Origin: Roseivirga sp.
GTDB lineage: Bacteria; Bacteroidota; Bacteroidia; Cytophagales; Cyclobacteriaceae
Direction of reading: 5' to 3'
Assembly (NCBI GenBank): GCA_029262895.1
Contig: JAJCYM010000099.1
Coordinates: forward strand, 1 to 64,000
Length of the DNA: 64,000 bases
Positions within the stretch are counted from its first letter, which is position 1, and each line of letters begins with the position of its first letter. Shown here piece after piece: positions 1 through 41,074 of the stretch. The position numbers were made by a program, and so were the translations under genes. A model generated the notes under the pieces. It searched no databases, was not told the DNA's origin, and worked only from the letters and a program-made list of their open reading frames with translations.

Positions 1-1552
1 ATCAGGAGTAAGTGGAAACAAAAAATTCATTTATATTTTCTCTGTAGTCGGGGTTTTACTCCTGTTGTTGGCTTGTATCAACTACGTGAATTCTTCTACC
101 GCCAAGTCACTTACTCGTCTTAAGGAAGTGGGCGTTCGAAAAGTGGTTGGTGCGAGTAAAGGTCATGTTAGGCTGCAATTTCTGATTGAAACAGGCTTTT
201 TTGTTTTGTTGGCCGTCATAATCGGTGCAGGACTGGCAGAATACTTTTTGCCAACTATGAATGAATTGACAGGCAAGTCTCTAAGCCTCGAGTACTTCTC
301 AGATCCATTCATACTGAGTTTTTTAATTCTGATTGTTCCGGGAGTTACCCTTATGGCTGGCCTTTATCCGGCATTTTTTGTTAGCCGATTTAAGACACTA
401 AAAATATTGAAAGGAGAAGTGCATGGTGGAAAGGCTGCATTCAGAAAATACCTCGTGGTATTTCAATTGATCACCACCTTAATGCTGCTTTTTGGAACCC
501 AAATTATCAGCAGACAGATCGATTTCTTTATGGATGCTGAAGTAGGTATGGATCCGGATGGTATTGTTTCGGCTTTCGTTCCTCAGGGAAAAAAATATGA
601 GGTGGTCAAAGAAATTGTAGCGAAGATACCGGGAGTTGAGGCAGTCACTGCCTCTCCGTTACCAGGTGTTTTTGGCACAAAAATGCCGGTTGAATGGAAG
701 GTCAATAATGAAGACCAAAAAATCACCTTGTACTATACACCGGCAGCAATGAATGTGGTGAACACCATGGGGATAGAAATTATTCAAGGAAGGGATTTTG
801 TGGCAGACAGTCAAGAAGACAAACAATCGAGTATTCTGATTGGAGAGTCAGCGGCCGGGGCTCTCGGTTTTGAAAACCCCTTAGGGCAGCAAATCAAGGT
901 TTATAATGATCAATTTGAGATGGTCAACCGTACCATTATTGGCGTTTTTAAGGACCCACAATTTAACCTTAAAAGTGAGCCATTGATGAGGGTTATTTTT
1001 CCCAGTGAGCGTTTTTTGAGCCGTGTAAATATCAAGCTGGATAATTCTGACAGAGCAGAAACTATGGCCAGAATTACAGATGCCTGGGATGAAGTACAGC
1101 CGGAAGCACCGTTCCAATACAGCATGATGGAAGATCAGATAGAGGCCAATTACGAGAAAGAGCAGAAATTTGGAAGGATTATTCAATATTTCTCTTGGAT
1201 AGCCATCCTGATTGCGGCCTTGGGATTATTTGGCCTGAGTGTTTTTACAATTGTGCAGAAGTACAAGGAAATAGGCATTAGAAAAGTATTGGGTGCGTCT
1301 GTTGGTGGCCTGGTATTCAAATTTTTGAAAGGCTACTTTATCTTAATCGCTATTGCCTCTCTTGTCGCAATTCCAACTGCCTATTATCTGATGGACGGCT
1401 GGTTATCGGATTTTGCCAATAGGATTCAGATAGGAGTAGTTGTGTTTGCATTGGGTATTGGGGCTGCTGTATTTATCGTGGTCTTGACTGTGGGCTACCA
1501 ATCGATTCGGGCTGCCCTTTCAAACCCCGTATCAATCTTAAGAGACGAATAA
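1..1552 (+). CDS. Duplicated FtsX/MacB-type permease, 5'-truncated by window edge (array member 1)
   Basis: The reading frame is already open at base 2, so the gene begins upstream; a TTG at 65 is internal. About 516 C-terminal residues are visible, starting at the first helix of the first FtsX domain, so roughly 280 residues are missing by comparison with the downstream paralogues. The cytoplasmic signature KEVGVRKVVGAS follows the first helix and is repeated as KEIGIRKVLGAS near the C-terminus; a second periplasmic domain lies between. The tail is NPVSILRDE. Family knowledge: FtsX-fold subunits of type VII ABC systems couple a cytosolic ATPase to periplasmic work rather than forming a classical channel. 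It resembles array member 11 (INYVN, then SL-R-KE-G-RKV-GA) more than its direct neighbours. Substrate unknown. Confidence 0.9.
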   Translation, partial: SGVSGNKKFIYIFSVVGVLLLLLACINYVNSSTAKSLTRLKEVGVRKVVGASKGHVRLQFLIETGFFVLLAVIIGAGLAEYFLPTMNELTGKSLSLEYFSDPFILSFLILIVPGVTLMAGLYPAFFVSRFKTLKILKGEVHGGKAAFRKYLVVFQLITTLMLLFGTQIISRQIDFFMDAEVGMDPDGIVSAFVPQGKKYEVVKEIVAKIPGVEAVTASPLPGVFGTKMPVEWKVNNEDQKITLYYTPAAMNVVNTMGIEIIQGRDFVADSQEDKQSSILIGESAAGALGFENPLGQQIKVYNDQFEMVNRTIIGVFKDPQFNLKSEPLMRVIFPSERFLSRVNIKLDNSDRAETMARITDAWDEVQPEAPFQYSMMEDQIEANYEKEQKFGRIIQYFSWIAILIAALGLFGLSVFTIVQKYKEIGIRKVLGASVGGLVFKFLKGYFILIAIASLVAIPTAYYLMDGWLSDFANRIQIGVVVFALGIGAAVFIVVLTVGYQSIRAALSNPVSILRDE

Positions 1553-1573
1553 AGAAATCATAAATTTTTGGTT

Positions 1574-3961
1574 ATGGTCAAGAATTATTTTAAACCATTA
1601 TTAAGAAGCTTTAAGCGAAAGAAGGCCTTTACTTTAATTAATGTTGGAGGCTTAACATTGGGTATCACGTGTAGCCTGATCATGTTTCTCATTGTGAAAC
1701 ATGAATTGAGTTACGACAACTACCATGAAAATGGGGATAGACTCTATAGAATTACTACAACAAGTACTTTTGACGGTAACACCAGTTATAGAATAGGAGT
1801 GCCATGGCCCTTGCCCAAGGCAGTGAAAGAAGATATTGTTGGCCTTGATGATATTACTTTTTTCAAGCATTCCAGATTTGGGAGGTTTACCATTATTAAC
1901 TCATCAGGTGATGAGCGATTTTTTGATGAAAACCCAGGGGTGGTTCATGCACAACCGAGTTTCTTTCAAATGTTTGATTGGGAATGGCTTGAAGGTGATA
2001 TGGCTAGTGCCCTGGCCGAACCAAATACGGTGGTTTTAGATACGGAAAATGCTGAAAAGTTCTTTCCTGGAGAATCGCCATTGGGTAAGGTGATAAAGTT
2101 CAACAATCAGGTTGACCTTAAGGTCACTGGCTTGGTAAAACAACGGCCTAAAACCACAGATTTCCCATTTGAAATATTTATCTCTATGGCGACTATTGAG
2201 AACAATCAAGACAGAACTCAATGGGGAAGCACAGCAAGCGATGATCGCTGCTATGTTATGCTAAATTCCGGTGTTACTCCGGAATCCATCAATGCTCAAT
2301 TTCCGGATTTTGTAACCAAACATTTTGGCGAAAAAAGCACCAACGAGATCAAGATTCAGTCTCTATCAGAAGTTCATTTTGATGAGCAATATGGTAATAT
2401 GAATTTTCGCAGCATCAGCAAGAGCCTGCTATACGTGCTTTCGGCAGTATGCGTTTTTATGGTCATTACCGCCTGTTTCAATTTTATCAACATGTCAACC
2501 GCTATGGCGATCAAACGCGCCAAAGAGGTGGGTATTAGAAAGGTTTTAGGAAGTACCAGGAAACAACTGGTATCCAGTTTTCTTCTGGAAACAGGCCTGA
2601 TAACCCTGCTTTCCATAGTGATTTCACTGGCAATTACGGAACGCCTTTTGCCTACGGTTGTGAATGACCTAACAGATTTGGACTTGACATTGGCCCTCCT
2701 TAGTGACGGCCAATTGTTGCTTTATCTGGGAGGGTTAATCGTTTTTGTCACTGCTTTGGCTGGACTATATCCCGCCTGGATTATTTCAGCCTTTAGACCT
2801 GCTCAGGTCCTGCGGGGAGTGGTGGGCAACCGCGATGGAAGCAAAATGAGTTTGCGCAGAGTCCTGGTTACCTTTCAATTCGCATTGTCACAAGTATTTA
2901 TTTTCGGAACCCTCATTGCGCTTTGGCAAATGCAATACGTAAGAACCGCAGACCTCGGTTATGATAGAGAGTGGATTGTTTATCTCAGCCTGCCTCCAAG
3001 TGGAAATGAAGATTTGAATTTTTGGCGAGGAGAAATAGCGGCCAATAGCCTGATCACCAGTCATTCTTTTGCACAAAACCCGCCTTTTTCCGGTTCCAGC
3101 TCAAGTACCAATGCGCTGTTCGAACTTGAAGACGGACCGCATAACATCACTTCTTTTTTGAAACCAGCAGATAGTAAGTATTTTGAAACTTATGGTCTCC
3201 AAATTATTGCGGGTGAGGGGCTAATGGATTCAGAAACGAGGAGCGGCTATGTGATCAATGAAGCTTTCCTCAAAAAAATGGGACTTGAACCTGAAGAGGC
3301 TCTGGGGCATATAATCAGTATTGGAGGACAAAAGGCCCCAATTTCTGGAGTAGTAAAAGATTTTCATACTACTACATTAAAGGAGAAAATTCGGCCAGTA
3401 GCCATTTTCAATCAGCCAGGGAGTTACAGAACACTAGCGGTCAAATTTCAGGCGGGATCTGCTGACGAAGTTTTGCAAGGTTTGGAGGATAGTTGGGATA
3501 AGGTATACTCCGAGCATGATATTAGGTATACATTTTTTGATGAGTACATCGGGCGTTTTTATGCGAAGGAGAAAAAATTCTCCCGTATGCTAAGCACTTT
3601 TGCCGGAATAGCAATTTTCATTTGCTGCTTAGGTCTCTATGGCCTAGTCTCCTATATGGCCAATCAAAAGACCAAGGAAATCGGAATTAGAAAAGTGCTG
3701 GGTGCTACTATTCGTAGTATCATGGGCTCATTCTCCATGGAATTTGTCCGGCTTGTTATTCTCGCATTTTTGGTAGCCGCACCACTGGCTTATTACGGAA
3801 TGGAGGGGTGGCTCAGTGATTTCGAATATAGAATCACAATTGGCCCGGGCATATTTATACTGGGTATTGTGGCTTCTCTGATTATTACATTAATTACCAC
3901 AGGTTATCGGTCTTTTAAAGCCGCACGTTCAAACCCGGTTGATTCACTGAGAAGCGAGTAA
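1574..3961 (+). CDS. Duplicated FtsX/MacB-type permease (array member 2)
   Basis: 795 residues from ATG 1574; an in-frame TTG six bases earlier is a less likely start, since the ATG gives the N-terminus MVKNYF that matches the paralogues. Layout: helix 1 at about 18-41 with FTLIN-GGLTLGI, periplasmic MacB_PCD-like domain to about 280, helices near 282-305, 335-355 and 378-398 (FtsX domain 1), helix near 432-452, second periplasmic domain to about 670, then helices near 675-695, 721-741 and 758-778 (FtsX domain 2). KEVGIRKVLGS lies near residue 315 and KEIGIRKVLGA near 700. The tail is NPVDSLRSE. It is closest to member 3 (shared FKR-KAFTLIN and LSY-NYH motifs). It starts 21 bases after member 1 and is followed by the hairpin pair at 3989-4046, so it probably ends a transcription unit. 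Confidence 0.92.
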   Translation: MVKNYFKPLLRSFKRKKAFTLINVGGLTLGITCSLIMFLIVKHELSYDNYHENGDRLYRITTTSTFDGNTSYRIGVPWPLPKAVKEDIVGLDDITFFKHSRFGRFTIINSSGDERFFDENPGVVHAQPSFFQMFDWEWLEGDMASALAEPNTVVLDTENAEKFFPGESPLGKVIKFNNQVDLKVTGLVKQRPKTTDFPFEIFISMATIENNQDRTQWGSTASDDRCYVMLNSGVTPESINAQFPDFVTKHFGEKSTNEIKIQSLSEVHFDEQYGNMNFRSISKSLLYVLSAVCVFMVITACFNFINMSTAMAIKRAKEVGIRKVLGSTRKQLVSSFLLETGLITLLSIVISLAITERLLPTVVNDLTDLDLTLALLSDGQLLLYLGGLIVFVTALAGLYPAWIISAFRPAQVLRGVVGNRDGSKMSLRRVLVTFQFALSQVFIFGTLIALWQMQYVRTADLGYDREWIVYLSLPPSGNEDLNFWRGEIAANSLITSHSFAQNPPFSGSSSSTNALFELEDGPHNITSFLKPADSKYFETYGLQIIAGEGLMDSETRSGYVINEAFLKKMGLEPEEALGHIISIGGQKAPISGVVKDFHTTTLKEKIRPVAIFNQPGSYRTLAVKFQAGSADEVLQGLEDSWDKVYSEHDIRYTFFDEYIGRFYAKEKKFSRMLSTFAGIAIFICCLGLYGLVSYMANQKTKEIGIRKVLGATIRSIMGSFSMEFVRLVILAFLVAAPLAYYGMEGWLSDFEYRITIGPGIFILGIVASLIITLITTGYRSFKAARSNPVDSLRSE

Positions 3962-3988
3962 TTTCGCATTAAAACTGTATTAAAAACA

Positions 3989-4046
3989 AACACTTCGGTG
4001 TTGTAAAAACAAACGATTTCTAGAGCCTAGAAATCGTTTGTTTTTT
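3989..4046 (+). terminator. Tandem hairpins ending with a strong intrinsic terminator
   Basis: A short stem of five pairs closed by a TTCG tetraloop (3989-4002) is followed by a perfect 19-bp stem (4005-4023 with 4027-4045) around a three-base loop. The long stem ends in a T run on the plus strand and begins with an A run, so it could act in both directions. It lies just after array member 2 and 111 bases before member 3. Confidence 0.8.
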
Positions 4047-4080
4047 ATAAGTGTCAGGTAAACAATAAGTTACAACTTTG

Positions 4081-4117
4081 GCACTCTAATTGGAAACAGA
4101 GTGCGAAGCACTCGCAC
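4081..4117 (+). promoter_or_regulatory. Structured leader with mutually exclusive stems
   Basis: Bases 4081-4087 can pair with 4098-4104 (7 bp). The same right-hand arm can instead pair with 4108-4113 (6 bp, 3-base loop), and 4101-4105 can pair with 4113-4117. The alternatives share bases and so exclude each other. The segment lies 40-76 bases before the start of the nine-gene permease operon. A CAACTTTG at 4073-4080 is a poor -7 candidate with no TTG at the right distance. A regulatory role is inferred from position and pairing only. Confidence 0.35.
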
Positions 4118-4156
4118 ATTAAGGGGGGTGTTACGAACAAAATAAAAAAACAACAC

Positions 4157-6550
4157 ATGCTCAAAAACTATCTGATCGTACTCTTCAGAAACTTCAAGCG
4201 AAACAAAGCTTTCACGCTAATCAATATCAGTGGTCTAACACTCGGTATCACTTGTAGTCTCATCATGTTCCTTATAGTCAAAGAGGAACTCAGTTTTAAC
4301 AAGTATCACTCAAACCTTGACTCTATTTATCGAATTGGTCATATCGATATAGTAGATGGACAGGAATATACACAAGGTGGTGTTCCAATGGTCATGGATG
4401 CTGCAGTGGAAGAAGAAATTGTGGGTGTCAAAGAGTCAACACTTGTCTCCCATGAGATGTATGGTTTGGTGTCTATTGAAAAACCTTCAGGAGAAATTAA
4501 ATATTATGAGGAGAACCCCGAACTCGTTTATGTAGAGCAAAACTTCTTTGACGTATTCGACTGGGAGGTCATTGAAGGAAGTCTGAAAGACAATTTTAGT
4601 GAGCCCAACATAGGGGCACTCAATCAAACATTGGCAGCTAAGTATTTTCCCGGAGAATCGGCCATTGGTAAGGTGGTTAGGCTAAATAAGAAACTCGATT
4701 TTAAAGTAGTGGCGGTGGTAGAAGATGCACCGGATAATTCAGACTTTCCTTTTGGCTTTTTTATGACCATGGCCACCAAATTAGCCAATGAAGATGTGGG
4801 TCGATGGGGTAGTATCAGTAGTAATAACGTGCTCTTTGTTCAGTTAGAAAAAGGAGCTGATGCCGCACAGGTAGAAGCGCAATTTCCCGATTTTGTAAAG
4901 CGCCATTGGGACAATGAAGATCCGGAATGGAGGAGCTTTGTGTTATCACCTCTTGGCGACTATCACTTCGATGAGCGTTTTGGTACTTTCGGAACGAGTT
5001 CTTCTAAACAAATGCTCTGGGCGTATGCCTTGATAGGCGCTTTTCTGATTGTCACAGCTTGTTTCAACTTCATCAACATGTCGACAGCAATGGCAGTGAA
5101 AAGGGCCAAAGAAGTAGGCATGCGTAAGGTTTTGGGAAGCAGTCGCAAGCAACTGATAACCAGGTTTCTTGGAGAAACATTTTTCATTACCCTTATTTCT
5201 ATTTTACTCTCTATGGGGCTTACAGAACGGCTTTTACCCCTGGTTATCAATGAGTTTGTTGAACTCAATATTGCTTTTCAACCCCTTCAGGATTTATCGT
5301 TGCTGACATTTCTGATTTCCATTTTGGTTAGTGTAACTCTGCTTGCGGGCTTTTACCCGGCTATTGTGCTTTCGAGTGCCAAACCAATATACGCCCTTAA
5401 AGGAGCGATGGACAAAAGAGGTAATGGTATGGGGCTGCGAAGAGTCCTGGTTGTGTTCCAGTTTTTTCTGTGCCAATTACTGATTTTCGGTACAATTGTG
5501 ATGGTCCGACAAATGGATTTTTTTAGATCTGTGGATATGGGCTACGACAAAGATTGGGTTTTGACCATTAACATGCCGGAAGGAGATGTAGAGAGTCAGA
5601 ATAGGTGGGAAGCTGACATTAAGCAATTACCCGGAGTAGCCTCATACTCCTTCAATTCCAAACCACCATTTTCCGGATCGATTAGTGGCACTAATGCATT
5701 TTATAATAACTCTGATACATCCAGACTGGAGCTCAATGTGCAATACAAATCAGTTGATCAGGGTTATCTGGATACTTATGGTTTACGACTTATAGCGGGA
5801 GAATGGCTACCGGATAGAGACACAATAGCCCACTATGTGGTCAATCAATCAGCGGTTAAAAAGATGGGTATTAAAGATCCTAATGATGCAATAGGCGAGA
5901 TTATTAATATGTGGGGATTGAAGTATCCGATTGTAGGTGTGGTAGAAGATTTTCATGCCATCACACTCTCCTCCCAGATTGAGCCGATGATCCTTTGTAG
6001 CAACAAGCCCAGGTATGAGACCTTGGGCCTCAAAGTGAATGCCGCCAGTGCTGAACAGGTGATTTCTTCTCTTGAAGATACCTGGTACAATATTCACGAG
6101 GAGTATGAGTTCGATTATGTTTTTCTGGATGAGAATATAGAGGCCTATTATGAAACTGAAAAGAAAATGTCCCAGATGTTGACCGTATTTGCCGGCATAG
6201 CGATTTTTATTGGCTGCTTGGGGCTCTATGGTCTGGTGGCTTTTATGGCCAATCAGCGGGCTAAGGAAATTGGTATCAGAAAAGTGCTGGGTGCGTCTGT
6301 AGCGAACATCGTTAAGGGGTTCTCCTGGGAATTCACCAAGTTGGTAATTATTGCCTTTTTGATTGCAGCACCACTCGGTTATTTCGGAATCGGTACCTGG
6401 TTGGATCAATATGCTTATCGAATCACAGTAGGACCTGCCATCTTTCTATTTAGCATAGGAGCCTCCTTGCTGATTGCTTTTATAACTACAGGCTATCGCT
6501 CCGGCAAGGCCGCTGTGGCAAACCCAGTCAACTCCCTTAGAGACGAATAG
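4157..6550 (+). CDS. Duplicated FtsX/MacB-type permease (array member 3, first gene of nine-gene operon)
   Basis: 797 residues from ATG 4157 (MLKNYLIVLFRNFKRNK). It has the same two-repeat layout as its neighbours: one N-terminal helix, periplasmic domain, three-helix FtsX domain with KEVGMRKVLGSSRK near residue 314, helix and second periplasmic domain, and second FtsX domain with KEIGIRKVLGAS near 701. The tail is NPVNSLRDE. Member 2 is its closest relative along the whole length, which suggests recent tandem duplication. It is the first gene after the terminator and structured leader, and member 4 begins one base after its stop codon, so it should be the promoter-proximal gene of the long operon. 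No ATP-binding motif is present. Confidence 0.92.
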   Translation: MLKNYLIVLFRNFKRNKAFTLINISGLTLGITCSLIMFLIVKEELSFNKYHSNLDSIYRIGHIDIVDGQEYTQGGVPMVMDAAVEEEIVGVKESTLVSHEMYGLVSIEKPSGEIKYYEENPELVYVEQNFFDVFDWEVIEGSLKDNFSEPNIGALNQTLAAKYFPGESAIGKVVRLNKKLDFKVVAVVEDAPDNSDFPFGFFMTMATKLANEDVGRWGSISSNNVLFVQLEKGADAAQVEAQFPDFVKRHWDNEDPEWRSFVLSPLGDYHFDERFGTFGTSSSKQMLWAYALIGAFLIVTACFNFINMSTAMAVKRAKEVGMRKVLGSSRKQLITRFLGETFFITLISILLSMGLTERLLPLVINEFVELNIAFQPLQDLSLLTFLISILVSVTLLAGFYPAIVLSSAKPIYALKGAMDKRGNGMGLRRVLVVFQFFLCQLLIFGTIVMVRQMDFFRSVDMGYDKDWVLTINMPEGDVESQNRWEADIKQLPGVASYSFNSKPPFSGSISGTNAFYNNSDTSRLELNVQYKSVDQGYLDTYGLRLIAGEWLPDRDTIAHYVVNQSAVKKMGIKDPNDAIGEIINMWGLKYPIVGVVEDFHAITLSSQIEPMILCSNKPRYETLGLKVNAASAEQVISSLEDTWYNIHEEYEFDYVFLDENIEAYYETEKKMSQMLTVFAGIAIFIGCLGLYGLVAFMANQRAKEIGIRKVLGASVANIVKGFSWEFTKLVIIAFLIAAPLGYFGIGTWLDQYAYRITVGPAIFLFSIGASLLIAFITTGYRSGKAAVANPVNSLRDE

Positions 6551-6551
6551 C

Positions 6552-8948
6552 ATGTTCAGAAACTACTTCAAAACTACGTTTAGAAAACTAATTAAAGATA
6601 AGCGGTATACGCTGATCAATATTGCGGGGCTGTCAACTGGCTTGATTCTGTTTCTCACCATAGCACTCTATGTGCAGAGAGAGCTTAATGTAGATAAACA
6701 TCAGCCTGATTGGGAGAACATCTATAGGGTGAACGCTGCATATACTAGCAGTGAGGGGAATACTGATGTTTACGCAGTTACTTATCAACCCCTGGCCGAA
6801 GCCATGGAGAGTGATTTGCCTGAGATTGAAGCGGCAACCAACTTCTTTTCACCTGCGGCCCAGCTTTCGTTTCGATCAGACGATCAAATGCTCTCCATTG
6901 ACAATACACTAATCTATTACACCGCTAATTCCTTTTTTGAAGTCTTTACACATGATTGGGTGGATCAGGGGCAGCTATTAAATGCGCCAAATACCGTGGT
7001 TATTTCAGACAAGCTTGCTGCCAGATTTTTTGGTAAAGAAGACGCAATAGGCCAAACCCTGACTTATGAGGATCCACAACAAACGTTGACCCTAACGGTG
7101 TCAGGAATATTTAAATCTACCCAGGCACCGAGCCATATTGCTTATGAAATGCTTATTAGTGACGAATCAAGCATTAACTTTTGGAGGCAAGGCTTAGCGG
7201 ATAACTGGAACTTACAGTATGTCTATACCTATTTCAAAGTCGCCAACCGCACTAGTACAATGGCTCTTAATGAAAAGTTAGGAATCATAAGAGAGAAGTA
7301 TCAGGCGGAAGGGGATAGGCTGGCTTATCAGGCGCAACCCCTGGGCAACATTTATTGGAATGCCACATTTTTTGAACCCGGTGTTAACGGGAATATTTCT
7401 TATATCTACGTTTTCGGCACATTTGCCTTAGTGGTTCTCCTTCTGGCCGGAGTAAACTTCATCAATCTGATGACAGCGCGCTCTATTAGAAGGTCAAAAG
7501 AAGTGGCGATAAGAAAAATAGTAGGCGCCAACAAACGGGGTTTGATCTTTCAATATCTCCTTGAGTCCATAGCCCTGGCCATGATTTCGATGGTTGTGGC
7601 TGGCGTAAGTGTGGAGCGATTGATTCCGGTCATCAATGCGAACTTTGATCTTCAGATTGCCTTTAATCTCTTTGACAATGGTGCACTATTGATCATGGTA
7701 GTCTTGGTGCCCTTGGTTTTGGGTTTCGTTTCTGGAATCTATCCAGCTTTGGTGCTATCGTCATTCAAGGCCAACAATATACTTCAAGGTAAGGCCAGCT
7801 GGAATTTCTCTGGAAATCAGTTGAGAAAGGGGCTCTTATTGTTCCAATTTCTGATTTCAATCTTGGTGATTTCTGGTGTAATGGTGATCAATCAGCAAAT
7901 GAATTTTATAAAAAATCAGGGACTTGGTTTTACGGAGGACCCCATTGTTGTACTGCCAAGGATAAGCAACAATTCAAATTACCTGATGCGCCTTGAACTA
8001 CAGGATGAACCGGGCATCCAGGGCATTGCCTCGCTTTCGAGTATCCCAGGCTACAGAGATCCCAGAGGAAGAAATATAAAGGAAAATGGGACCACAGGCG
8101 ATGGCATAAATGCCAATGGCATTTGGGTTTCAGAAGAATATGCAGAGATCATCGATATTGAATTCCTGGCAGGTAGAAATTTCACCATTGACGATCAGGA
8201 AAACACGGTGATTTTAAACGAGAAGGCCGTAACAGACCTGGGCTGGGAAATTGAAAACGCACTTGGAAAACGCATTGTAATGACCGGCAGAGATGGTTTT
8301 GATCCAACAACCTATGAAGTGCTGGGCGTGATTGAAGACTATAACTATCAATCGATGTATGAGCAGGTGGCGCCTTTATTTCTGCGAAATAACAGCAAAT
8401 CAAGAAGTGGGGGAGACGCCTCAATAGTGAAAATATCCAAGGCCAGATTTGAGGAAAGTCTGGCGGCTATTCAGAATGTCTGGACGGACATCGAGAAGGC
8501 GCAGGCCTTTGATTATTATTTCCTTGATGATGCGCTTAACGAAGTATATCAAAAGGAGATGAAACTTTCGAAAACCGTTAATTATGTTTCAGGCATATCG
8601 ATCTTGATTTGCTTCCTGGGGTTATTCGGACTGGTTTCACTTACACTAGAATCACGCAGAAAAGAAATCGGAATTCGCCAGGTGCTGGGAGCTTCAGGCA
8701 AGACCATTGCGAGGTTGCTTTCTTCTTCCTACACAAGAATCATCGGGCTGAGTATAGTCATAGGCGCTCCAATTTCTTATTACCTGCTTGATCAATGGTT
8801 GTCTAATTTCGCCTACCGCGTTGACTATTCCTTCACAATCTATTTTGCTGTTGGGCTCGGAACCTTACTGCTCAGTATAGTTTTAGTGGGATCACAGTCC
8901 ATCCACGCTTCGAAAACAAATCCTGTTGAATCCTTAAGAGAAGATTAA
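6552..8948 (+). CDS. Duplicated FtsX/MacB-type permease (array member 4)
   Basis: 798 residues from ATG 6552, one base after the stop of member 3. N-terminal helix at about 20-42, first FtsX domain with KEVAIRKIVGANKR near residue 311, second with KEIGIRQVLGASGK near 703; in this copy Gln replaces the usual Lys of RKVLGA. Tail NPVESLRED. The sequence before the first FtsX signature, NFINLMTARSIRR, differs from the NFINMSTAMA of members 2-3, so this is a separate subfamily. Its stop codon shares one base with the next ATG (TAATG), indicating translational coupling. Confidence 0.92.
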   Translation: MFRNYFKTTFRKLIKDKRYTLINIAGLSTGLILFLTIALYVQRELNVDKHQPDWENIYRVNAAYTSSEGNTDVYAVTYQPLAEAMESDLPEIEAATNFFSPAAQLSFRSDDQMLSIDNTLIYYTANSFFEVFTHDWVDQGQLLNAPNTVVISDKLAARFFGKEDAIGQTLTYEDPQQTLTLTVSGIFKSTQAPSHIAYEMLISDESSINFWRQGLADNWNLQYVYTYFKVANRTSTMALNEKLGIIREKYQAEGDRLAYQAQPLGNIYWNATFFEPGVNGNISYIYVFGTFALVVLLLAGVNFINLMTARSIRRSKEVAIRKIVGANKRGLIFQYLLESIALAMISMVVAGVSVERLIPVINANFDLQIAFNLFDNGALLIMVVLVPLVLGFVSGIYPALVLSSFKANNILQGKASWNFSGNQLRKGLLLFQFLISILVISGVMVINQQMNFIKNQGLGFTEDPIVVLPRISNNSNYLMRLELQDEPGIQGIASLSSIPGYRDPRGRNIKENGTTGDGINANGIWVSEEYAEIIDIEFLAGRNFTIDDQENTVILNEKAVTDLGWEIENALGKRIVMTGRDGFDPTTYEVLGVIEDYNYQSMYEQVAPLFLRNNSKSRSGGDASIVKISKARFEESLAAIQNVWTDIEKAQAFDYYFLDDALNEVYQKEMKLSKTVNYVSGISILICFLGLFGLVSLTLESRRKEIGIRQVLGASGKTIARLLSSSYTRIIGLSIVIGAPISYYLLDQWLSNFAYRVDYSFTIYFAVGLGTLLLSIVLVGSQSIHASKTNPVESLRED

Positions 8949-11389: not shown

Positions 11390-11390
11390 T

Positions 11391-13778: not shown

Positions 13779-13779
13779 A

Positions 13780-16158: not shown

Positions 16159-16160
16159 CT

Positions 16161-18539: not shown

Positions 18540-18551
18540 AAGAGAAATATA

Positions 18552-20999
18552 GTGATAAAACAGACCTTCAAATTTGCCTTCCGGACTTTTAGAAAAGCCC
18601 GGTTTTTGCATATTCTTAATGTCTTAGGACTTACGCTTGGATTAAGTGTTTTCTTTTTGGTCTCACTTTATATCTACCAAGAAAAGAGTTACGAAAGAGG
18701 ATTTAAAAAGAGGGATAGAATTTATCAGGTCAGCCATACCATGCTTGGGATCAAGTTTGGGATGGGGGCGGCCAATTTACCCTACGTGCTTCATGAGACA
18801 CCAGAAGTAACAGAATTCACCAGTTTCTCCAAACGCGCAAGAACGATAAACTGGGATGATAAGGAAAAAACGGCCAGCGTAATGACCGTAGACTCTTCCT
18901 TTTTAAAAGTATTTGATTTCGAGCTACTCATTGGAGACCCTGAAACGGTTTTGGATGAGTCTAACTTTGCTGTGATAAGTGAGCAAAAGGCACTGGATTT
19001 CTTCGGCACTAAGGATGTTTTGGGAAAATTAATTAAGATAACAGAGTATACCCGCGATAGTTCATTTCAGATTCCGGCAATTATTAATGGGGTGAGTAAA
19101 ACCCCTCGTTTCAAAACGCAATTGAGTTTTGATCTCCTAGTATCTCGGCAAAGGCCCGTCAAAGAACTCGTCCTTGATGGTTGGCAAAATTCAAGCGTAT
19201 TTAATTACATCGTTGCCGCGCCAAATACAGCGGAGGCAACGCTAGACAAAAGGCTTTTTGATCTAAGCTATAAATACATATACCCAAAGACTGCGCCTGG
19301 CTCTAACTTCACCGAAGAAGAATGGAGAGCACATGGGCTCTACACCGGCTTTTATGTTGAATCACTGTCGGCATTGAGGATGAGTTCAGATACAAATAGT
19401 AATCTTATGCCACCGTTAAACACTGGACAGCTGCAGACACTTTCTATCATTGCGCTGGCAGCACTTATTATTTCGGTTTTCAACTTTATCAACATCTCTA
19501 CTGCCCGTGCATCAATGAGAATGAAAGAGGTAGGGGTGAAGCGTATTATGGGCTCCTCCAAAAAAATGCTTGCCTTTCAATTTATGCTGGAATCATTTTT
19601 ATTAATTCTAGTGGCGTCACTGGTTTCCCTTGCCATTGTAGAGGCCTTAGTTCAGCTTAAACCTGCCTCCATTGGCTTAGTGGTAGACTATTCGGTCTTG
19701 CATTCCCAAGAATGGGTTTTGGGCTTAGTTGCCTTTGTTTTATTGCTCACATTTTTAGCAGGCATCTATCCTGCGGTTTATCTCTCGAGTGGCAAACTGG
19801 TTTCTATTCTGAAAAATGGAGGATCCAAAAACAGTTTTAGCATTCTGAATGCTGCTGCACTGAGAAGATTCGCGACTGTGCTACAATTTGTCTGTTCGAT
19901 AGGCTTGATTACTGCCGTAATCACCATGTTTTTGCAAGTAGATCATTTGAGAACAAGAGATATTGGATATGATGGTGGTAGCGTATTGGTGATTGACAAC
20001 ACCTACCTGTTAAAGCAGGCTAAAAACACCTTCAAAAATGAGCTACTCAGGTTGTCCTCTGTAAGCTCTGCCGCTTATTCAAGCAGGTTGCCAAGTGCCA
20101 CAGCGCTGGAAAGGCCTAATTCCACCAAAGTGAATGATAGTACGGAGATCAACTTCACCTTCTTTGAAGTGGACGATTCCTTCTTTGATGTAATGTCAAT
20201 GGAATTTTCAGCAGGTAAGTCATTCGCTGAAACGGGTATAGACAAAACTGAATTATCGAACGAGACCAAGTCTGAAACCACGGTGTTTTTTCCAGTGGTA
20301 ATCAATGAAGTAGCAGCAAAGCTGATGGGACTGGATAATCCCGTTGGACAAACTTTTATGAAGCAAGGCCTGATAGTAGGTGTAGTAAATGATTTTGTCT
20401 TTAGTGATCTGCGACAAGAAGTCGGACCGGTGATGCTAACCAGAAAAAACAGAAATGGTTCATCGAGTTACAGTTTCCCATTGGTAGTTAAAACAAATGA
20501 TGGACTTTCAGCAATTGACGAGATAGAAAAAGTATGGTCAAAGTTTTCAGAAAAGGAACTCAAGTACCACTTGTTGGAGACCAACTACGCCAACCTTTTA
20601 AGGATAGAATTACAAGGTTTTAGATCCGTATTGATCTTCTCTATTATTGCCGTTCTCATATCATGTTTGGGACTATTGGGTCTGGCAATATTCACTATTG
20701 ATCAGCGAACGCATGAATTTGGCATAAGAAAGGTATTAGGAGCCTCAATTTCAGATATTATGACTTTGTTCGGAAGTGGCTTTGCTAAGTTGATGGCGGT
20801 GGCCTTTCTTTTTGCGCTCCCAATTTCAATTGTATTCATGCAAAACTGGTTGTCGAATTATGCGGATAGAATCAATTTGGATGCTTGGATTTTTATTTTA
20901 ACTGCCGGAATTATTAGTGTAATAGTTGCAGGAACCATTCTTTTCCAATCCTTGAAAGCTGGTCGTCTTAACCCAGTGGAAACCCTTAGAAACGAATAA
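18552..20999 (+). CDS. Duplicated FtsX/MacB-type permease (array member 9)
   Basis: 815 residues from GTG 18552; this start gives MIKQTFKFAFRTFRK, which aligns with the ATG-initiated N-terminus of member 10, and no ATG fits better. First FtsX signature KEVGVKRIMGSSKK near residue 323, where Lys-Arg-Ile replaces the usual Arg-Lys-Val; second HEFGIRKVLGASIS near 719. Tail LNPVETLRNE. With member 10 it forms a distinct subfamily (LNV-GLTLGLSVFFLVSLY, LAGIYPA-YLSSGK). It follows member 8 after 12 bases. Confidence 0.91.
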   Translation: MIKQTFKFAFRTFRKARFLHILNVLGLTLGLSVFFLVSLYIYQEKSYERGFKKRDRIYQVSHTMLGIKFGMGAANLPYVLHETPEVTEFTSFSKRARTINWDDKEKTASVMTVDSSFLKVFDFELLIGDPETVLDESNFAVISEQKALDFFGTKDVLGKLIKITEYTRDSSFQIPAIINGVSKTPRFKTQLSFDLLVSRQRPVKELVLDGWQNSSVFNYIVAAPNTAEATLDKRLFDLSYKYIYPKTAPGSNFTEEEWRAHGLYTGFYVESLSALRMSSDTNSNLMPPLNTGQLQTLSIIALAALIISVFNFINISTARASMRMKEVGVKRIMGSSKKMLAFQFMLESFLLILVASLVSLAIVEALVQLKPASIGLVVDYSVLHSQEWVLGLVAFVLLLTFLAGIYPAVYLSSGKLVSILKNGGSKNSFSILNAAALRRFATVLQFVCSIGLITAVITMFLQVDHLRTRDIGYDGGSVLVIDNTYLLKQAKNTFKNELLRLSSVSSAAYSSRLPSATALERPNSTKVNDSTEINFTFFEVDDSFFDVMSMEFSAGKSFAETGIDKTELSNETKSETTVFFPVVINEVAAKLMGLDNPVGQTFMKQGLIVGVVNDFVFSDLRQEVGPVMLTRKNRNGSSSYSFPLVVKTNDGLSAIDEIEKVWSKFSEKELKYHLLETNYANLLRIELQGFRSVLIFSIIAVLISCLGLLGLAIFTIDQRTHEFGIRKVLGASISDIMTLFGSGFAKLMAVAFLFALPISIVFMQNWLSNYADRINLDAWIFILTAGIISVIVAGTILFQSLKAGRLNPVETLRNE

Positions 21000-21010
21000 A
21001 ATTCGACTTT

Positions 21011-23455
21011 ATGTTCAATCAAATTCTCAAGTTTGCATTTAGGAGTTTCAGGAAATCTGCCTTGTTACATTTTTTGAATGTAGTCGGACTAACGCTAGGC
21101 CTATCCGTATTTTTCTTGGTCTCACTATATGTTTATCAGGAGAACAGCTATGAAAGTGACTTCAGTCATAAGGAGCGAATTTTCCAAATAAGTGGCGTGT
21201 CGAATGGAGTTGGAGAAATAGCCTATGCCACTCCCAATTTGGCTTTTGCACAGGATGAAATTCCTGAGATAGATGCCATAACAGTTTTTTCGTTGTGGGG
21301 CGCAGGTCAAGGACTTAGAGTCGGGGAATCAGAGCCAATTACGATGAAAATCATTTCCGCAGATTCCTCTTTTTTAAGCGTATTTGACTTTGAGATTATA
21401 GCAGGAATAAGAGAAAGTGCTTTGACTAACCCTAACTCAATCGTAATAACGGACAAAGGGGCATTAAAGGCATTTGGTACGGTTGACGTGCTGGGTAAAA
21501 CGGTTGAATTGAGAGATGTGCCATATACTATTGAGGCAGTTATTCGAAGCCCACACTTTAAAACCCAGCTTGATTTTGAGGTGTTGTTGCCAAAGAAGCA
21601 TCAGGAATATCAGGTCAAATTGTGGAGGTCAGTCAACGTGATAGTCTATGTTAGAACCAATGCTAATTCGAGTCAGGAACAATTGGATGAAAGCTTATTG
21701 AGAGTGAGCCTACGGCATGTTTATCCTCAGGTAACTGGGGAGAGCGTGAACATAATGGGTACAGAAGAATGGCGAAAAGATGCCAGGTACAGTGGCTTTT
21801 TCTCCGAATCGATTCACCAGTTAAGGATGAGTTCAGATACCCGATTTAATCCAATGCCAAGAGCCAATCGAAGCCAGTTGAACACGATGAGCATTGTTGG
21901 TTTAGCTGCCTTAATCATGTCAATGATTAACTTCATTAACCTCTCCACGGCAAAAGCCTCAGCCAGATTTAAGGAAGTGGGGGTTAAACGTATTTTGGGT
22001 TCTTCCAAAGTATGGCTTATCAGTCAATTTTTATTTGAAGCATTTATTTTGATTTCCTTCTCGGCCTTGTTAGCCTTGGGATTGGTGGAACTGGTGATCC
22101 AGGTGGGGCCAGGTTATCTGAATTCTTTTATTGAATATTCAATCCTACACTCTGCTCAATGGATATGGGGCTTGATACTGTCTATTTGTGCACTCTCTCT
22201 TTTAGCCGGAATTTATCCGGCTCTATATCTTTCAAGCGGTAAGTCTATCGCCCTGCTCAAAAAAGGGGAGGCTAAAAACATGTTCAGTATTTTAAATGCA
22301 AAGGGCTTTAGAAAAGGTGCTATTGTCCTTCAGTTCGTTTGTTCGATTGGTCTGATTGCTGGAGTAATTGTGATGTTTCAACAAATGGATTTCTTGAAAA
22401 ACAGAGATTTGGGCTATGAGGATGAGTATGTGTTTTCTACCGCAGGAATGAGTCTTTTAGTTAACCCTATCGATAAGAGCAGTTCTTTTGAAACATTTAA
22501 GAATGAGCTTTTGAAAATACCCTCCATTAAAGAAATCGGTTTTTCATTTCGAGTGCCTTTGGATAATGCCAATTATATTCCTTTTTCCATAAAAACTTCA
22601 GATTCCACCAATCACGATTTTGTTGTTATAAGTGCGGATGTTGGCTTCATAGATTTGATGGAGTTTAAGCTTGTGGAGGGAAGGATGTTCGATGAAAAGG
22701 CAGTTCAAAGGGTAAACACAGAAGATGGAAAAAGCCTGATTAGGCCTGTCGTGATTAATGAGATGGCAGCGCAGGCAATGGGTTTTGAAAATCCTGTTGG
22801 AGAAGTCATTGCCAATAAATATGAAGTTGTGGGCGTGTTACAGGACTTTTTCTTTGACGATCTGAGAAAGAAAGTCGATCCGATTATAATATATAATGGG
22901 ACAGATCATACCCACAGCAACCTGGTTGTAAAGGCCGATAACATGGGTGCCACCATGGCCCAAATAGAGACGATTTGGTCGGGATTAATCTGGCCGGGTT
23001 ATGGAGCATCATCATTGAGCTGGAATACGCTGGAATCGCGTTACGCCAAGTTGGTTCAGGGAGAGAATGACAGTTTTCGTCTGGTCTTGTTGTTTTCCAT
23101 TCTTGCTGTTATCATTTCTTGTTTAGGGCTTCTTGGACTTGCCGTATTTACTGTCGATCAGCGCATTCATGAATTTGGTATAAGGAAGGTGCTGGGGGCA
23201 TCTGTCACAGATATTATGCACTTGTTTAGTTTAGATTTTGTAAAACTGCTGGCCGTTGCCTTTGTGGTGGCTGTTCCTGTTGCAGTCTATGCCATGCAAA
23301 ACTGGCTAGATGGATTTGCCAACCGTGTCAGTCTTTCTGCCTATGTTTTTGTGATCACAGGAATGGTGACCGTCATTCTCGTTTTGGCTACGATTCTCTT
23401 CCAATCCTTGAAAGCTGGTCGGCTCAATCCGGTAGAAACCCTTAGAAATGAATAA
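21011..23455 (+). CDS. Duplicated FtsX/MacB-type permease (array member 10)
   Basis: 814 residues from ATG 21011. First FtsX signature KEVGVKRILGSSKV near residue 320; second HEFGIRKVLGASVT near 718. Tail LNPVETLRNE, identical to member 9. The pair is similar over its whole length, with the best match in the helices, the cytosolic loops and the SIL-N-G spacer; the periplasmic domains have drifted more. This fits a recent tandem duplication followed by divergence of the outward-facing parts. Gaps of 11 bases on both sides. Confidence 0.92.
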   Translation: MFNQILKFAFRSFRKSALLHFLNVVGLTLGLSVFFLVSLYVYQENSYESDFSHKERIFQISGVSNGVGEIAYATPNLAFAQDEIPEIDAITVFSLWGAGQGLRVGESEPITMKIISADSSFLSVFDFEIIAGIRESALTNPNSIVITDKGALKAFGTVDVLGKTVELRDVPYTIEAVIRSPHFKTQLDFEVLLPKKHQEYQVKLWRSVNVIVYVRTNANSSQEQLDESLLRVSLRHVYPQVTGESVNIMGTEEWRKDARYSGFFSESIHQLRMSSDTRFNPMPRANRSQLNTMSIVGLAALIMSMINFINLSTAKASARFKEVGVKRILGSSKVWLISQFLFEAFILISFSALLALGLVELVIQVGPGYLNSFIEYSILHSAQWIWGLILSICALSLLAGIYPALYLSSGKSIALLKKGEAKNMFSILNAKGFRKGAIVLQFVCSIGLIAGVIVMFQQMDFLKNRDLGYEDEYVFSTAGMSLLVNPIDKSSSFETFKNELLKIPSIKEIGFSFRVPLDNANYIPFSIKTSDSTNHDFVVISADVGFIDLMEFKLVEGRMFDEKAVQRVNTEDGKSLIRPVVINEMAAQAMGFENPVGEVIANKYEVVGVLQDFFFDDLRKKVDPIIIYNGTDHTHSNLVVKADNMGATMAQIETIWSGLIWPGYGASSLSWNTLESRYAKLVQGENDSFRLVLLFSILAVIISCLGLLGLAVFTVDQRIHEFGIRKVLGASVTDIMHLFSLDFVKLLAVAFVVAVPVAVYAMQNWLDGFANRVSLSAYVFVITGMVTVILVLATILFQSLKAGRLNPVETLRNE

Positions 23456-23466
23456 ACCTTAAAGCT

Positions 23467-25842
23467 ATGTTTAGAAACAACCTTAAACTCGTTTTCAGAA
23501 GACTCAGAAAAGAGCGGCTATTTACCTTTGTAAATACTTTGGGGTTAACCGTTGGGCTAACCGCTTTTCTTCTGATCGCGCTCTACGTGCGTGATGAGTT
23601 GAGTTTTGATAAGTTCCATAGTGATGTAGATAAGATATATCGATTGACTCAATATAAAGAGGGAAGTGACGTAAGGGGTGGTTCGGTACCAGTTGACTTT
23701 ATTGAATTTGTCAGACAAGATTTGCCACAGGTAGAGTCACATGTAAGAATTAATAAAGGCAGTTTGACGAACCTGATTTCCACGAAGGAGTCGTCATTCT
23801 ATTCAGGAGGAGTAATCCTCTCCGAGTCAACTTTTTTTAGTTTTTTCGATTTTGAGCTGCTTGACGGAAACCGTGATTTTGTCCTTTCACAGCCTCGAAG
23901 TGTAGTACTCACTGAGAGCTTTGCGAAAAAATTGTTTGGCAGGACGGATGTGATTGGTGAGGAGTTGGTATTCAACAAAAACGAAAAGTTTGAGGTGACC
24001 GGAATAAGTTCCGACCCTCCAAAGAATAGCTCTATCCAGTTTGAGTTAGTGGCATTGGCAGACGAATTGATGTTTGAAAACACCTTTGATAAAGGCTATA
24101 TGCGGAATATTGAGACATTCTTAAAGTTGCCAGAATTAAGTGAATTGAAATCGATCGAAGGGGAGATTAATGATGGAATCAGACAAAAGCCTAATTACTT
24201 CAAAGTGATGGGGGATAATCTGTACGGGCTTATGCCATTCACAGATCAGCGGCTCCATTCCAAGTTTGAACGTGACAGATTGGAGACAAATGATGCTAAA
24301 TACGTTTTGCTCTTTTCCGGAATTGGGCTGGTTATTTTATTACTCGCAATAATCAATTATGTCAACCTTGTTACCGCCCAATCATTACGGAGAGTAAAAG
24401 AAATAGGCCTCAGGAAAGTGATTGGTGCGAAGAGAGGACAGTTGATCCAGTTTCAGATGCTGGAATCAGTGATGATAACCGTGATTTCGGTAGTACTTTC
24501 TTTTGCCATTGCGGAAAGGCTTATGCCTACGTTTAATGAGATATTAAATAAGGAAGTTATTCTGGACTATATGAGCCTTGATTTTATCGCTTGGGTACTG
24601 ATAGCCGGAGTTCTATTTGGAGTTCTGGCAGGCCTATACCCAGCTTACTTAATCACCCGAGTTGGTGCTTTATCCTTGATCTCAAGGTCATCTGGATCTA
24701 AAAATGGCAAAGGTTATTTCAGAAAATTTCTTGTACTGATCCAATTCACGGTCTCTGCTTGTTTGATAATTGTATTGGCAATCATGTCAAACCAAATGAA
24801 TTTTCTAAACCAGAATAAACTTGGCTTTGACAAAGATCATCTTATTTCTATTCCTCTATATCCAGATGGGGTAAATACTGCTGCTGCTTTAAAATCTGAA
24901 TTGAAGAAAATCAAAGGAGTGGAATCCGTATCACAGACCACTTGGAAATTTGGTGGTGGAACCCAAACTGGTAGATATGCTGAGCTTCCCAACGAAAACC
25001 GAGAGGTTGCTGGAGCATTTGTTGATTTGGTAAATGCAGATGAAGATTTCATGAAAACGATGAAACTCAAAATTATAGCTACATCTGAGAACTATGATCC
25101 TGGCAATCTCTTGGATAACCAGGTTATCATTAACCAGTCTCTAATCAAGGCATTTGGCTGGACAGATGATGTCATTGGGAAAAAGGTATATGAATCTCGT
25201 GGCAGAAGTAAAGAAATAGCGGCCATTATAGAAGATTTTCACACCTACTCTATGAAGGAAGAGATTAACCCGCTGGTCATTGAGGCCTATTCATCTGACC
25301 GATTTGGAAGTGAAAGCTTGATGTTGAAGCTAGGGGGTATAGAAAATAACGAGGTCATTAATCAAATCGCTTTGACATACAAATCTCTAACAGAAAGACC
25401 ATTTGACTATTATTATTTAGATGATCGTGTAGAATCATACTATAAGCAGGAACAAGGCCAGTTTAAACTTTTCCAAATATTCTCATCGCTTGCCTTAATA
25501 ATCTCATTACTAGGATTGATAGCCTTGACCATTTATATGGTTGAGCAGCGGAGAAAAGAGGTGAGCATTAGAAAAATTCTCGGAGCTTCCCTCGAAGCAC
25601 TAATGTTAATGTTGAACAAGGAATATACAAGTCTTGTGATTTTGGCCTTCCTAATTGCCTCTCCAATTGCTTTTCACTCCATGCAAGATTGGCTTACCGA
25701 CTTTAAATATCGGATCGATATAAGTCCATTGTTGTTTGTAGGTAGTTTCATGGCCTTTCTAGCCTTAAGTTGGTTTGTGACTCTGTTTCAATCTCTTAAG
25801 GTCTCTCGAGAAAATCCTGCTGATGTTTTGAGAGAGGAATGA
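23467..25842 (+). CDS. Duplicated FtsX/MacB-type permease (array member 11, last of operon)
   Basis: 791 residues from ATG 23467. First FtsX signature KEIGLRKVIGAKRG near residue 311, preceded by INYVNLVTAQSLRR; second KEVSIRKILGASLE near 698. Tail NPADVLREE, the only copy with Ala instead of Val in the NPV motif. It is more like the truncated member 1 than like members 2-10, so the array starts and ends (as seen here) with the same subfamily. Its stop lies 15 bases before the 3' end of a convergent minus-strand gene, and I see no clear terminator hairpin in that gap. Confidence 0.92.
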   Translation: MFRNNLKLVFRRLRKERLFTFVNTLGLTVGLTAFLLIALYVRDELSFDKFHSDVDKIYRLTQYKEGSDVRGGSVPVDFIEFVRQDLPQVESHVRINKGSLTNLISTKESSFYSGGVILSESTFFSFFDFELLDGNRDFVLSQPRSVVLTESFAKKLFGRTDVIGEELVFNKNEKFEVTGISSDPPKNSSIQFELVALADELMFENTFDKGYMRNIETFLKLPELSELKSIEGEINDGIRQKPNYFKVMGDNLYGLMPFTDQRLHSKFERDRLETNDAKYVLLFSGIGLVILLLAIINYVNLVTAQSLRRVKEIGLRKVIGAKRGQLIQFQMLESVMITVISVVLSFAIAERLMPTFNEILNKEVILDYMSLDFIAWVLIAGVLFGVLAGLYPAYLITRVGALSLISRSSGSKNGKGYFRKFLVLIQFTVSACLIIVLAIMSNQMNFLNQNKLGFDKDHLISIPLYPDGVNTAAALKSELKKIKGVESVSQTTWKFGGGTQTGRYAELPNENREVAGAFVDLVNADEDFMKTMKLKIIATSENYDPGNLLDNQVIINQSLIKAFGWTDDVIGKKVYESRGRSKEIAAIIEDFHTYSMKEEINPLVIEAYSSDRFGSESLMLKLGGIENNEVINQIALTYKSLTERPFDYYYLDDRVESYYKQEQGQFKLFQIFSSLALIISLLGLIALTIYMVEQRRKEVSIRKILGASLEALMLMLNKEYTSLVILAFLIASPIAFHSMQDWLTDFKYRIDISPLLFVGSFMAFLALSWFVTLFQSLKVSRENPADVLREE

Positions 25843-26890: not shown

Positions 26891-27109
26891 AAAATGTAAA
26901 TTTAAGAGTGATGACTGAATTCGAATATAAATGAAATTGCATAAAAATGATCGAGGCACGAAAATTTTGCAGGCAGCCCCTCGATTTAGCCGTTAATCAT
27001 GTACCGCACAGATAGGCATGGTTTCTAGTGCTGAATAATTATACCAGATTAGCAACCGTCACTTGTTAATCACTCCTTACGCCTTATCACCACAAACTCA
27101 GGTCTCGTG

Positions 27110-38407: not shown

Positions 38408-38420
38408 TTGAAGAGTTGAT

Positions 38421-40377: not shown

Positions 40378-40396
40378 AAACTATCAACAAAAAGCG

Positions 40397-41062: not shown

Positions 41063-41074
41063 AACTTAAGCAAC

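Follow-up and report, generated by a model that had tools for sequence, protein, structure and literature searches.

Permease bank at the contig edge

The first 64,000 nucleotides of a Roseivirga sp. contig (JAJCYM010000099.1, here C99; hereafter the window) open with 11 tandem open reading frames (ORFs), all on the plus strand between bases 2 and 25842, that encode two-repeat permeases of the MacB/FtsX type (Table 1). Ten are complete (791–815 aa), and the first ORF is a 516-aa C-terminal part that is open at base 1; the other nine complete permeases are 26–49% identical to the first complete one. MacB_PCD and FtsX domains were detected over cut-off in all 10 proteins given to Pfam, a set that left out only the permease at 23467–25842, which had an FtsX-domain match and matches to TIGR03434 and NF038008 below their cut-offs. 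Spacing between the genes is −1 to 15 nt, except for 195 nt upstream of 4157, and the run contains just one further ORF of at least 150 aa, which lies antisense within a permease gene (5849–6409). The preliminary description of this DNA, made from its letters, had reported eleven consecutive same-strand permeases with no ATPase, adaptor, or regulator inside the run, and both observations hold: we found none of these among the 11 genes, no ABC_tran domain in the 10 proteins given to Pfam, and no further labelled ORF when the window was searched with the adaptor, ATPase, TolC, regulator, and kinase of contig C62 and the ATPase of contig C79 described below. PADLOC returned no match for the three proteins that it was given. 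A search of genome contigs with permease 15 found nine loci at 27–32% identity, all in Bacteroidota.

Base 1 of the window is also base 1 of C99 (assembly of 5.79 Mb in 102 contigs), which shows that the assembly truncates the run. We detected its 5' part on contig C30, which holds eight complete permeases and a ninth truncated at the contig end. The cut C30 ORF covers positions 1–253 of the permease profile and the first window ORF positions 280–793; because these positions are complementary, the two are most likely one gene, permease 9, interrupted by a short unread gap. The bank of the window and C30 (hereafter bank A) would thus comprise about 19 permeases (8 + 1 + 10). Synteny and the split gene gave this placement, and k-mer overlaps among 12 contig ends revealed no neighbor of C99. 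The preliminary description had proposed looking upstream of base 1 for an ATPase or a regulator; the contig ends there, C30 supplied an NtrC-type regulator and a kinase, and no C62- or C79-like ATPase ORF lies inside bank A in any of eight genus genomes (that of the window, G000, and G001, G002, G003, G005, G008, G011, and G012). In the seven genomes other than G000, an orthologous bank lies directly behind a divergent NtrC-type regulator of ~457 aa, and a histidine kinase (~450 aa) adjoins the regulator in six of them, with one gene between in G012. These banks contain 5 (G003), 7 (G001, G011, and G012), 8 (G002), 15 (G005), and 17 (G008) permeases.

Conservation, predicted fold, and evolution of the permeases

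We aligned 116 permeases from the banks of the eight genus genomes, from those on C41, C93, and C5, and from one non-bank neighbor on C30, leaving out the partial window gene. Conservation peaks in two 12-mers, the helices that follow the second transmembrane helix (TM2) of each half (KEIGIRKVLGAS and RAKEVGMRKVLG), which reach 3.3 and 3.0 bits; the periplasmic domains have ~1.3 bits. The helix at this position in MacB is the major coupling helix (PMC5985334). A regular expression for the motif matched both halves of nine of the 11 window proteins; in the remaining two it matched the first half only, and their second-half versions (RTHEFGIRKVLGA and RIHEFGIRKVLGA) are visible in the alignment, so that a coupling helix was found between TM2 and TM3 of each unit. 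Judged by their sequences, the bank permeases look ATPase-dependent. The lack of a C62- or C79-like ATPase ORF inside bank A would suit permeases that work without any ATPase, in a passive or receptor-like manner, but the coupling helices of both halves are their best conserved parts and ATPases co-occur and are linked with them (see below), which makes this explanation barely credible.

An AlphaFold2 model of the core permease (4157–6550) had a pLDDT of 85.8, a pTM of 0.79, and eight long membrane-type helices. Among chains longer than one domain, it matched YbbP (Z 25.3, root-mean-square deviation (rmsd) 9.7, 658 aligned), BceB (Z 21.0, rmsd 8.2, 471 aligned), YtrF (Z 17.5, rmsd 8.4), and MacB (Z 17.0, rmsd 7.8, 353 aligned). 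As high Z scores come with an rmsd of 7.8–9.7, the modeled fold agrees with these proteins but differs in domain arrangement. The permeases have the characters of the MacB/FtsX superfamily (type VII ATP-binding cassette permeases), and the predicted fold of one member also matches LolCDE.

We also built a FastTree phylogeny of these 116 sequences, with local supports; two of its long branches were flagged. Bank A permeases from the eight genomes are intermixed in it and form orthologue groups, of which the core-gene group consists of eight rows, one per genome, with a support of 100. Members of the C41 and C93 banks partly cluster by bank. This grouping implies that bank A predates these species and has expanded and contracted in individual lineages.

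A conserved ATPase encoded apart from the bank

We surveyed the LolD-class ATPases of G000 with TIGR02211 and read the neighborhoods of ten, the eight best matches and two others. About eight such ATPases are encoded in the genome, one of which belongs to an operon of membrane fusion protein (MFP), ATPase, and TolC without a permease (C62:85857–89468), the sole such operon in the surveyed neighborhoods. Its products carry HlyD_3 and RND_mfp (MFP), ABC_tran (ATPase), and OEP (TolC) domains, and it has its own divergent NtrC regulator and kinase. Permease-less MFP-ATPase-TolC operons with a divergent response regulator and histidine kinase were present in all eight genus genomes examined. The lack of accessory genes noted in the preliminary description was therefore a matter of location: the regulator pair is on C30, and an adaptor and a duct are at C62. 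We also observed two tandem MFP genes before the shared ATPase in G008 (C8, L080, 7190–10109).

The C62-type ATPase occurs in exactly one copy, at ~90% identity or more, in all 12 genus genomes with permease-motif matches. G009, of the same genus (2.6 Mb, 84% complete), has neither a permease-motif match nor this ATPase, and a whole-protein permease search gave four weak matches there (best 2.4e-7). Identities to the matches in G001 and G005 are 91.6% and 97.0% for the C62 ATPase, 94.2% and 97.7% for the C79 ATPase (C79:21981–22655), and 68–92% for five other LolD-class ATPases, one of which reaches 91.7%; C48:36231, with no orthologue among the fetched pieces, was left out. The conservation of the C62 and C79 ATPases fits a hub with many partners, though it is not proof of one.

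Co-occurrence was examined in 146 genomes of the order, evenly drawn with a completeness of 90 or more asked, at thresholds of E 1e-10 for the permease N-terminal motif and E 1e-80 for the C62-type ATPase. Listed best ATPase E-values were bimodal, with none between 1e-71 and 1e-81. The motif and the ATPase were each detected in 77 genomes: 75 had both, 67 neither, two only the permease, and two (G041 and G119) only the ATPase, counts in which species are not independent. Nine families include both states, and their listed genomes comprise 55 with both, 2 and 2 with a single one, and 37 with neither. All 41 genomes with at least five permease matches have the C62-type ATPase. The preliminary description had also suggested counting ATPases against permeases; these 41 genomes contain three to five ATPases matching C62 at E 1e-60 (read by eye), and G000 has its roughly eight LolD-class ATPases alongside 100 full-length permeases counted in 0.81 Mb chosen for matches.

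With about eight LolD-class ATPases at hand, each permease might be served by any available one (LolD, YbbA-like, or FtsE), with no dedicated module. We regard this as very unlikely: the C57 and C64 ATPases adjoin an FtsX-domain gene and C48:36231 adjoins a 778-aa gene, and the class at 46–48% identity does not track the permeases, because it is also present in G009, G014, and G017, which lack a permease-motif match.

Linked versions outside the genus

We read 19 C62-type ATPase loci outside the genus, from G013, G015, G016, G019, G020 (two), G021 (two), G022 (Fulvivirga lutimaris), G023 (Parapedobacter composti), G045, G058, G063, G082, G084, G121, G131, G158, and G160. Two-repeat permeases lie downstream on the same strand at 11 of them; those of G131 come after a 137-aa ORF, and G082 has a first permease broken into two ORFs, with intact ones behind it. 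The permease is upstream of the ATPase at G021-C10, and an opposite-strand gene lies between the two in G023. An MFP gene precedes the ATPase at 14 loci, in G082 across a 122-aa ORF. The fullest locus, in G019 (metagenome-assembled genome, JAJNDK010000001.1), reads MFP, ATPase, 12 permeases, second ATPase, and TolC, with a divergent kinase and regulator, and so unites MFP, ATPase, permease, and outer membrane factor, the parts of a tripartite exporter, in one place; its second ATPase is 65.9% identical to that of C79. In G121, the MFP and ATPase are followed by 11 permeases, some of which are separated by small ORFs called on the opposite strand. The corresponding parts in G000 (MFP-ATPase-outer membrane factor and permease bank) are on separate contigs, and given the linked layouts elsewhere, the bank looks like the part of an exporter that was separated from its motor in the window's genus.

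A shared ATPase encoded outside the window, as the preliminary description proposed, is thus very probable from linkage and co-occurrence and well supported by gene order, while physical pairing of ATPase and permease is predicted. The interpretation in the preliminary description is supported in part. Fully equipped banks occur in other families, which it had listed among the findings that would count against an undescribed system, although we did not find a functional description of them in the literature.

We consider it likely that the bank belongs to an exporter similar to DarBCD and MacAB-TolC in which motor, adaptor, and duct are common to many permeases. The bank permeases would be single-chain, internally duplicated MacB-type (type VII) proteins. 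They would take their energy in trans from the conserved DarD/LolD-like ATPase encoded in the C62 operon and dock to the adaptor and outer-membrane duct encoded with it. The many permeases would be interchangeable, and each would have distinct periplasmic domains suited to a ligand of its own; the second conserved ATPase (C79) may share the work. Export is the presumed direction, and by analogy with MacB, DarB, and BceB the ligands are perhaps toxic or signaling peptides or lipids.

Regulation of bank A and of other banks

Response_reg, Sigma54_activat, and HTH_8 domains were found in the regulators of C30, C93, and C62. The 195-nt gap in the window contains a tandem repeat, a hairpin, and a sigma54-like site (Table 1). 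Allowing up to three mismatches, the repeat has exactly two matches in the whole genome, in this gap and at C30:34593–34631 upstream of bank A's first gene; a reversed control had zero. All eight genomes have TGTATCAAAAACAAAC..TGTATTGAAAACAAAC in common upstream of the first gene, and the same repeat type precedes the core gene (window 4157) in all seven genomes aligned there, G012 being left out with 20 nt. TGGCA-N6-TTGG follows the repeat in five of eight first-gene regions and six of seven core regions, and the TTGGCAY form was found twice in the window against 0.16 expected by chance. From these patterns we infer sigma54 control of bank A, with the repeat as the putative site of its regulator. 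The hairpin suggests two transcription units under one regulator; it was not called by a consensus terminator scan, whose one call (4101–4117) is on the opposite strand.

Other banks in G000 have comparable regulators. C93 contains 17 permeases (one only 683 aa) and C5 four, each bank with a regulator and kinase; C41 has 10, with a regulator truncated where the contig ends; C6 has a regulator with two permeases, of which one is incomplete; and regulators of this kind, likewise truncated by the contig edge, stand at the start of C31 and C80. By the strict sigma54 rule (GG-N10-GC), sites scoring 9 were found at C93 and ahead of C41's last gene (window background 0.28 such sites/kb), and the best sites of the C62-type operons (8–9 in five of eight) face the regulator, not the MFP. 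The C93 and C5 regions have no 11-base word in common with bank A, and a motif particular to C41, GTGTCACAATGAGAC, precedes the first and last genes of that bank. Permease-motif matches, not all of them verified permeases, range from 1 to at least 41 per genome in the order sample (E 1e-10) and reach at least 150 in four genus genomes (E 0.001).

The proximity of these regulators raises a reading in which the permeases are mainly sensors that report ligands to the kinase, as BceB does to BceS, with transport secondary. A divergent regulator adjoins bank A in all eight genomes and a kinase in seven, and hydropathy predicts a bank kinase with two membrane helices and hardly any periplasmic loop. 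By hydropathy only, six kinases have a hydrophobic N-terminus, five of them with two stretches about 5–10 residues apart and the sixth, HK_G019, with its second stretch under threshold. Bce systems typically pair one transporter with one kinase, and ~19 permeases per kinase is unlike that pairing; the bank regulators are moreover of the NtrC type, and the MFP and TolC of the linked versions point to export. Even with the precedent of BceAB-BceRS, where an FtsX-type permease works with a two-component system in which the kinase has no extracellular sensor (PMC7828314), we find a mainly sensory role unlikely.

Several observations weigh against one shared C62-type exporter or against the regulation proposed for it. 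Two genomes, G091 and G149, have the permease motif without a C62-type ATPase match. In G013 and G015, which have one permease, the ATPase can be its neighbor, which means that simple linkage accounts for some of the co-occurrence. The 19 linked loci are a non-random sample, and several of the nine read later were chosen since permease matches already lay near the ATPase; no permease was in view at five (both of G020, G021-C1, G058 at a contig end, and G063), and G084 has only a 138-aa fragment. No kinase was present in the stretch read at bank A of G008, which does have the regulator. The strict sigma54 rule found no site at bank A except one weak match (score 7) in G002. The whole-genome search did not find the bank A repeat at the C62 operon, so the two are probably under different regulators. 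Finally, the C79 ATPase is as conserved as that of C62 and, by eye, similarly distributed, so the latter need not be the only motor.

This last point leads to an unlikely reading, in which the bank uses a C79-type ATPase or a C62 and C79 heterodimer, the latter because the permease halves are unlike and could face an unlike nucleotide-binding pair. The 94–98% identity of the C79 ATPase to its G001 and G005 matches is in keeping with this, as is the G019 bank, which a C62-type ATPase opens and the C79-type one closes. The ATPase class at 51–56% (by eye, E 1e-65) is present in the 12 permease-rich genus genomes and G016 and not in G009, G013–G015, G017, or G018. However, the C79 ATPase of G000 adjoins a single permease with no MFP in view (C79:21981–25217), G019 has the only bank-adjoining ATPase that scores better as C79 type among the linked-locus stretches read, and in the case of the best fold match, YbbP, two copies of a single ATPase are bound (PMC12646458). 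A bolder scheme, which we think quite unlikely, combines these ideas into an ECF-like modular exporter with two unlike ATPases (C62 and C79, each for one permease half), one adaptor, one duct, and more than 100 exchangeable permeases that would also be ligand sensors for short-loop kinases switching on whole banks.

Comparison with known systems

The exporter reading of bank A can be set beside several characterized families. We compared 10 of the 11 window permeases with NCBIfam (nine full-length and the partial one, leaving out 21011–23455). TIGR03434, the ADOP family to which the preliminary description had likened the run, was their best-scoring family, and the genes are likewise in tandem; scores of 194–281 bits (full-length) and 221.6 bits (partial) are below the curated cut-off of 622.3, and we do not assign them to it. 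ADOPs generally have no adjacent ATPase, and neither does bank A in the eight genus genomes, whereas its linked versions elsewhere carry one. Membership of DarB (NF038008; 65.7–147.9 against 700 bits, 10 proteins) is similarly rejected. The best NCBIfam matches by E-value of the C62 MFP and ATPase were DarC (NF038010; 164.8 against 450 bits) and DarD (NF038007; 283.1 against 375 bits), both below cut-off. The darobactin exporter DarB/DarC/DarD resembles our system in its two-repeat permease, MFP, and separate ATPase, but here one ATPase apparently serves many permeases and NtrC-type regulators adjoin.

Like MacAB-TolC, one of the tripartite pumps (PMC8277102), the system has MacB_PCD and FtsX domains, a coupling helix between TM2 and TM3, and an MFP and TolC in its linked versions. 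It differs in having the ATPase on its own chain, two permease units per chain, and dozens of permeases per genome, and MacB itself (PRK10535) was rejected at 22–61 against 966 bits, with no fused ATPase domain. Escherichia coli YbbAP offers the best fold match, with one duplicated permease chain of ~800 residues and two periplasmic domains, but identity is 13%, and YbbP has two extra linking helices (PMC12646458) where our model has the eight long membrane-type helices. ATPases common to several permeases are known from MceG with Mce1/Mce4 (PMC9947336) and FhuC in Staphylococcus aureus (PMC10147376). These systems, and group II ECF modules, are importers with few partners, whereas the permeases described here are of the MacB type, and their motif matches number up to 150 or more per genome. 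BceAB differs from bank A in having its own ATPase per transporter, and in regulator type. Group II ECF modules share one ATPase set among several permeases. Titles and abstract openings of the literature on orphan or duplicated permeases, shared ATPases, and sigma54 or two-component regulation of FtsX/MacB proteins in Bacteroidetes, with few subscription papers among them, mentioned no such bank arrangement.

Neighboring genes and other permease runs

Right of bank A, the window encodes two small proteins on the minus strand (25858–26343 and 26393–26959), each with one N-terminal hydrophobic helix and no Pfam or NCBIfam match. Similar small ORFs, judged by their first residues, lie right of bank A in seven of eight genus genomes (two in six, one in G003) and were not seen in the short flank fetched for G012. 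Further on, Pfam detected NqrA among the plus-strand genes at 37040–41686, and from gene order we take those that follow it to be a sodium-translocating NADH:quinone reductase operon.

G000 also contains a second permease class of about 870–900 aa on C89, C90, C36, C76, and C56 (L015, L016, L018, L070, L069, and L071). One member carries a permease prefix domain (NF038404) at its N-terminus. ORFs of ~110 aa adjoin these genes and may encode PadR-type regulators; HAAS-PadR fusions to FtsX/MacB proteins have been described (PMC11237479). In G016, of another family, contig C1 contains long permease runs at 7048–7091 kb and 5439–5472 kb (L088–L090 and L108–L110) that are loosely packed, with gaps of mostly about 100–400 nt and a few other ORFs.

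Table 1. Features of bank A, in window positions unless contig C30 is named
Feature	Position	Strand	Basis
Histidine kinase of bank A	C30:31753-33108	-	Synteny, search with C62 proteins
NtrC-type regulator of bank A, divergent	C30:33211-34584	-	Synteny, search with C62 proteins
Permease 9, C-terminal part (profile 280-793)	2..1552	+	ORF, Pfam, NCBIfam, profile alignment
Permease 10, two-repeat MacB_PCD/FtsX; alternative TTG start 1568	1574..3961	+	ORF, Pfam, NCBIfam
195-nt intergenic region, likely internal bank promoter region	3962..4156	+	Upstream alignments, gap measure
Enhancer-like tandem repeat TGTATYAAAAACAAAC..TGTNNTRAAAACAAAC	3976..4014	+	Alignment, genome-wide motif search
Terminator-like 19-bp perfect hairpin, then U run; overlaps second half of repeat	4005..4045	+	-21.7 kcal/mol, z -6.65
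Sigma54-like site TTGGCACTCTAATTGG; canonical -24, non-canonical -12	4078..4093	+	TGGCA-N6-TTGG form
Permease 11, conserved core member, structure modeled	4157..6550	+	Best match 62-71% identical in 11 same-genus genomes
Permease 12	6552..8948	+	ORF, Pfam, NCBIfam
Permease 13	8948..11389	+	ORF, Pfam, NCBIfam
Permease 14	11391..13778	+	ORF, Pfam, NCBIfam
Permease 15	13780..16158	+	ORF, Pfam, NCBIfam
Permease 16	16161..18539	+	ORF, Pfam, NCBIfam
Permease 17	18552..20999	+	ORF, Pfam, NCBIfam
Permease 18	21011..23455	+	ORF, Pfam
Permease 19, last of bank	23467..25842	+	ORF, FtsX-domain match, NCBIfam

Implications

MacB-type exporters are usually viewed as one motor to one permease. In this genus the permease repertoire reaches at least 150 motif matches per genome while the likely motor is a single, highly conserved copy. 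If the shared exporter proposed here is correct, these bacteria would provide a natural system for how one ATPase couples to many permeases, and dozens of orphan permeases in the order would gain a named partner. The substrates of whole banks would then be testable through deletion of one ATPase or one kinase.

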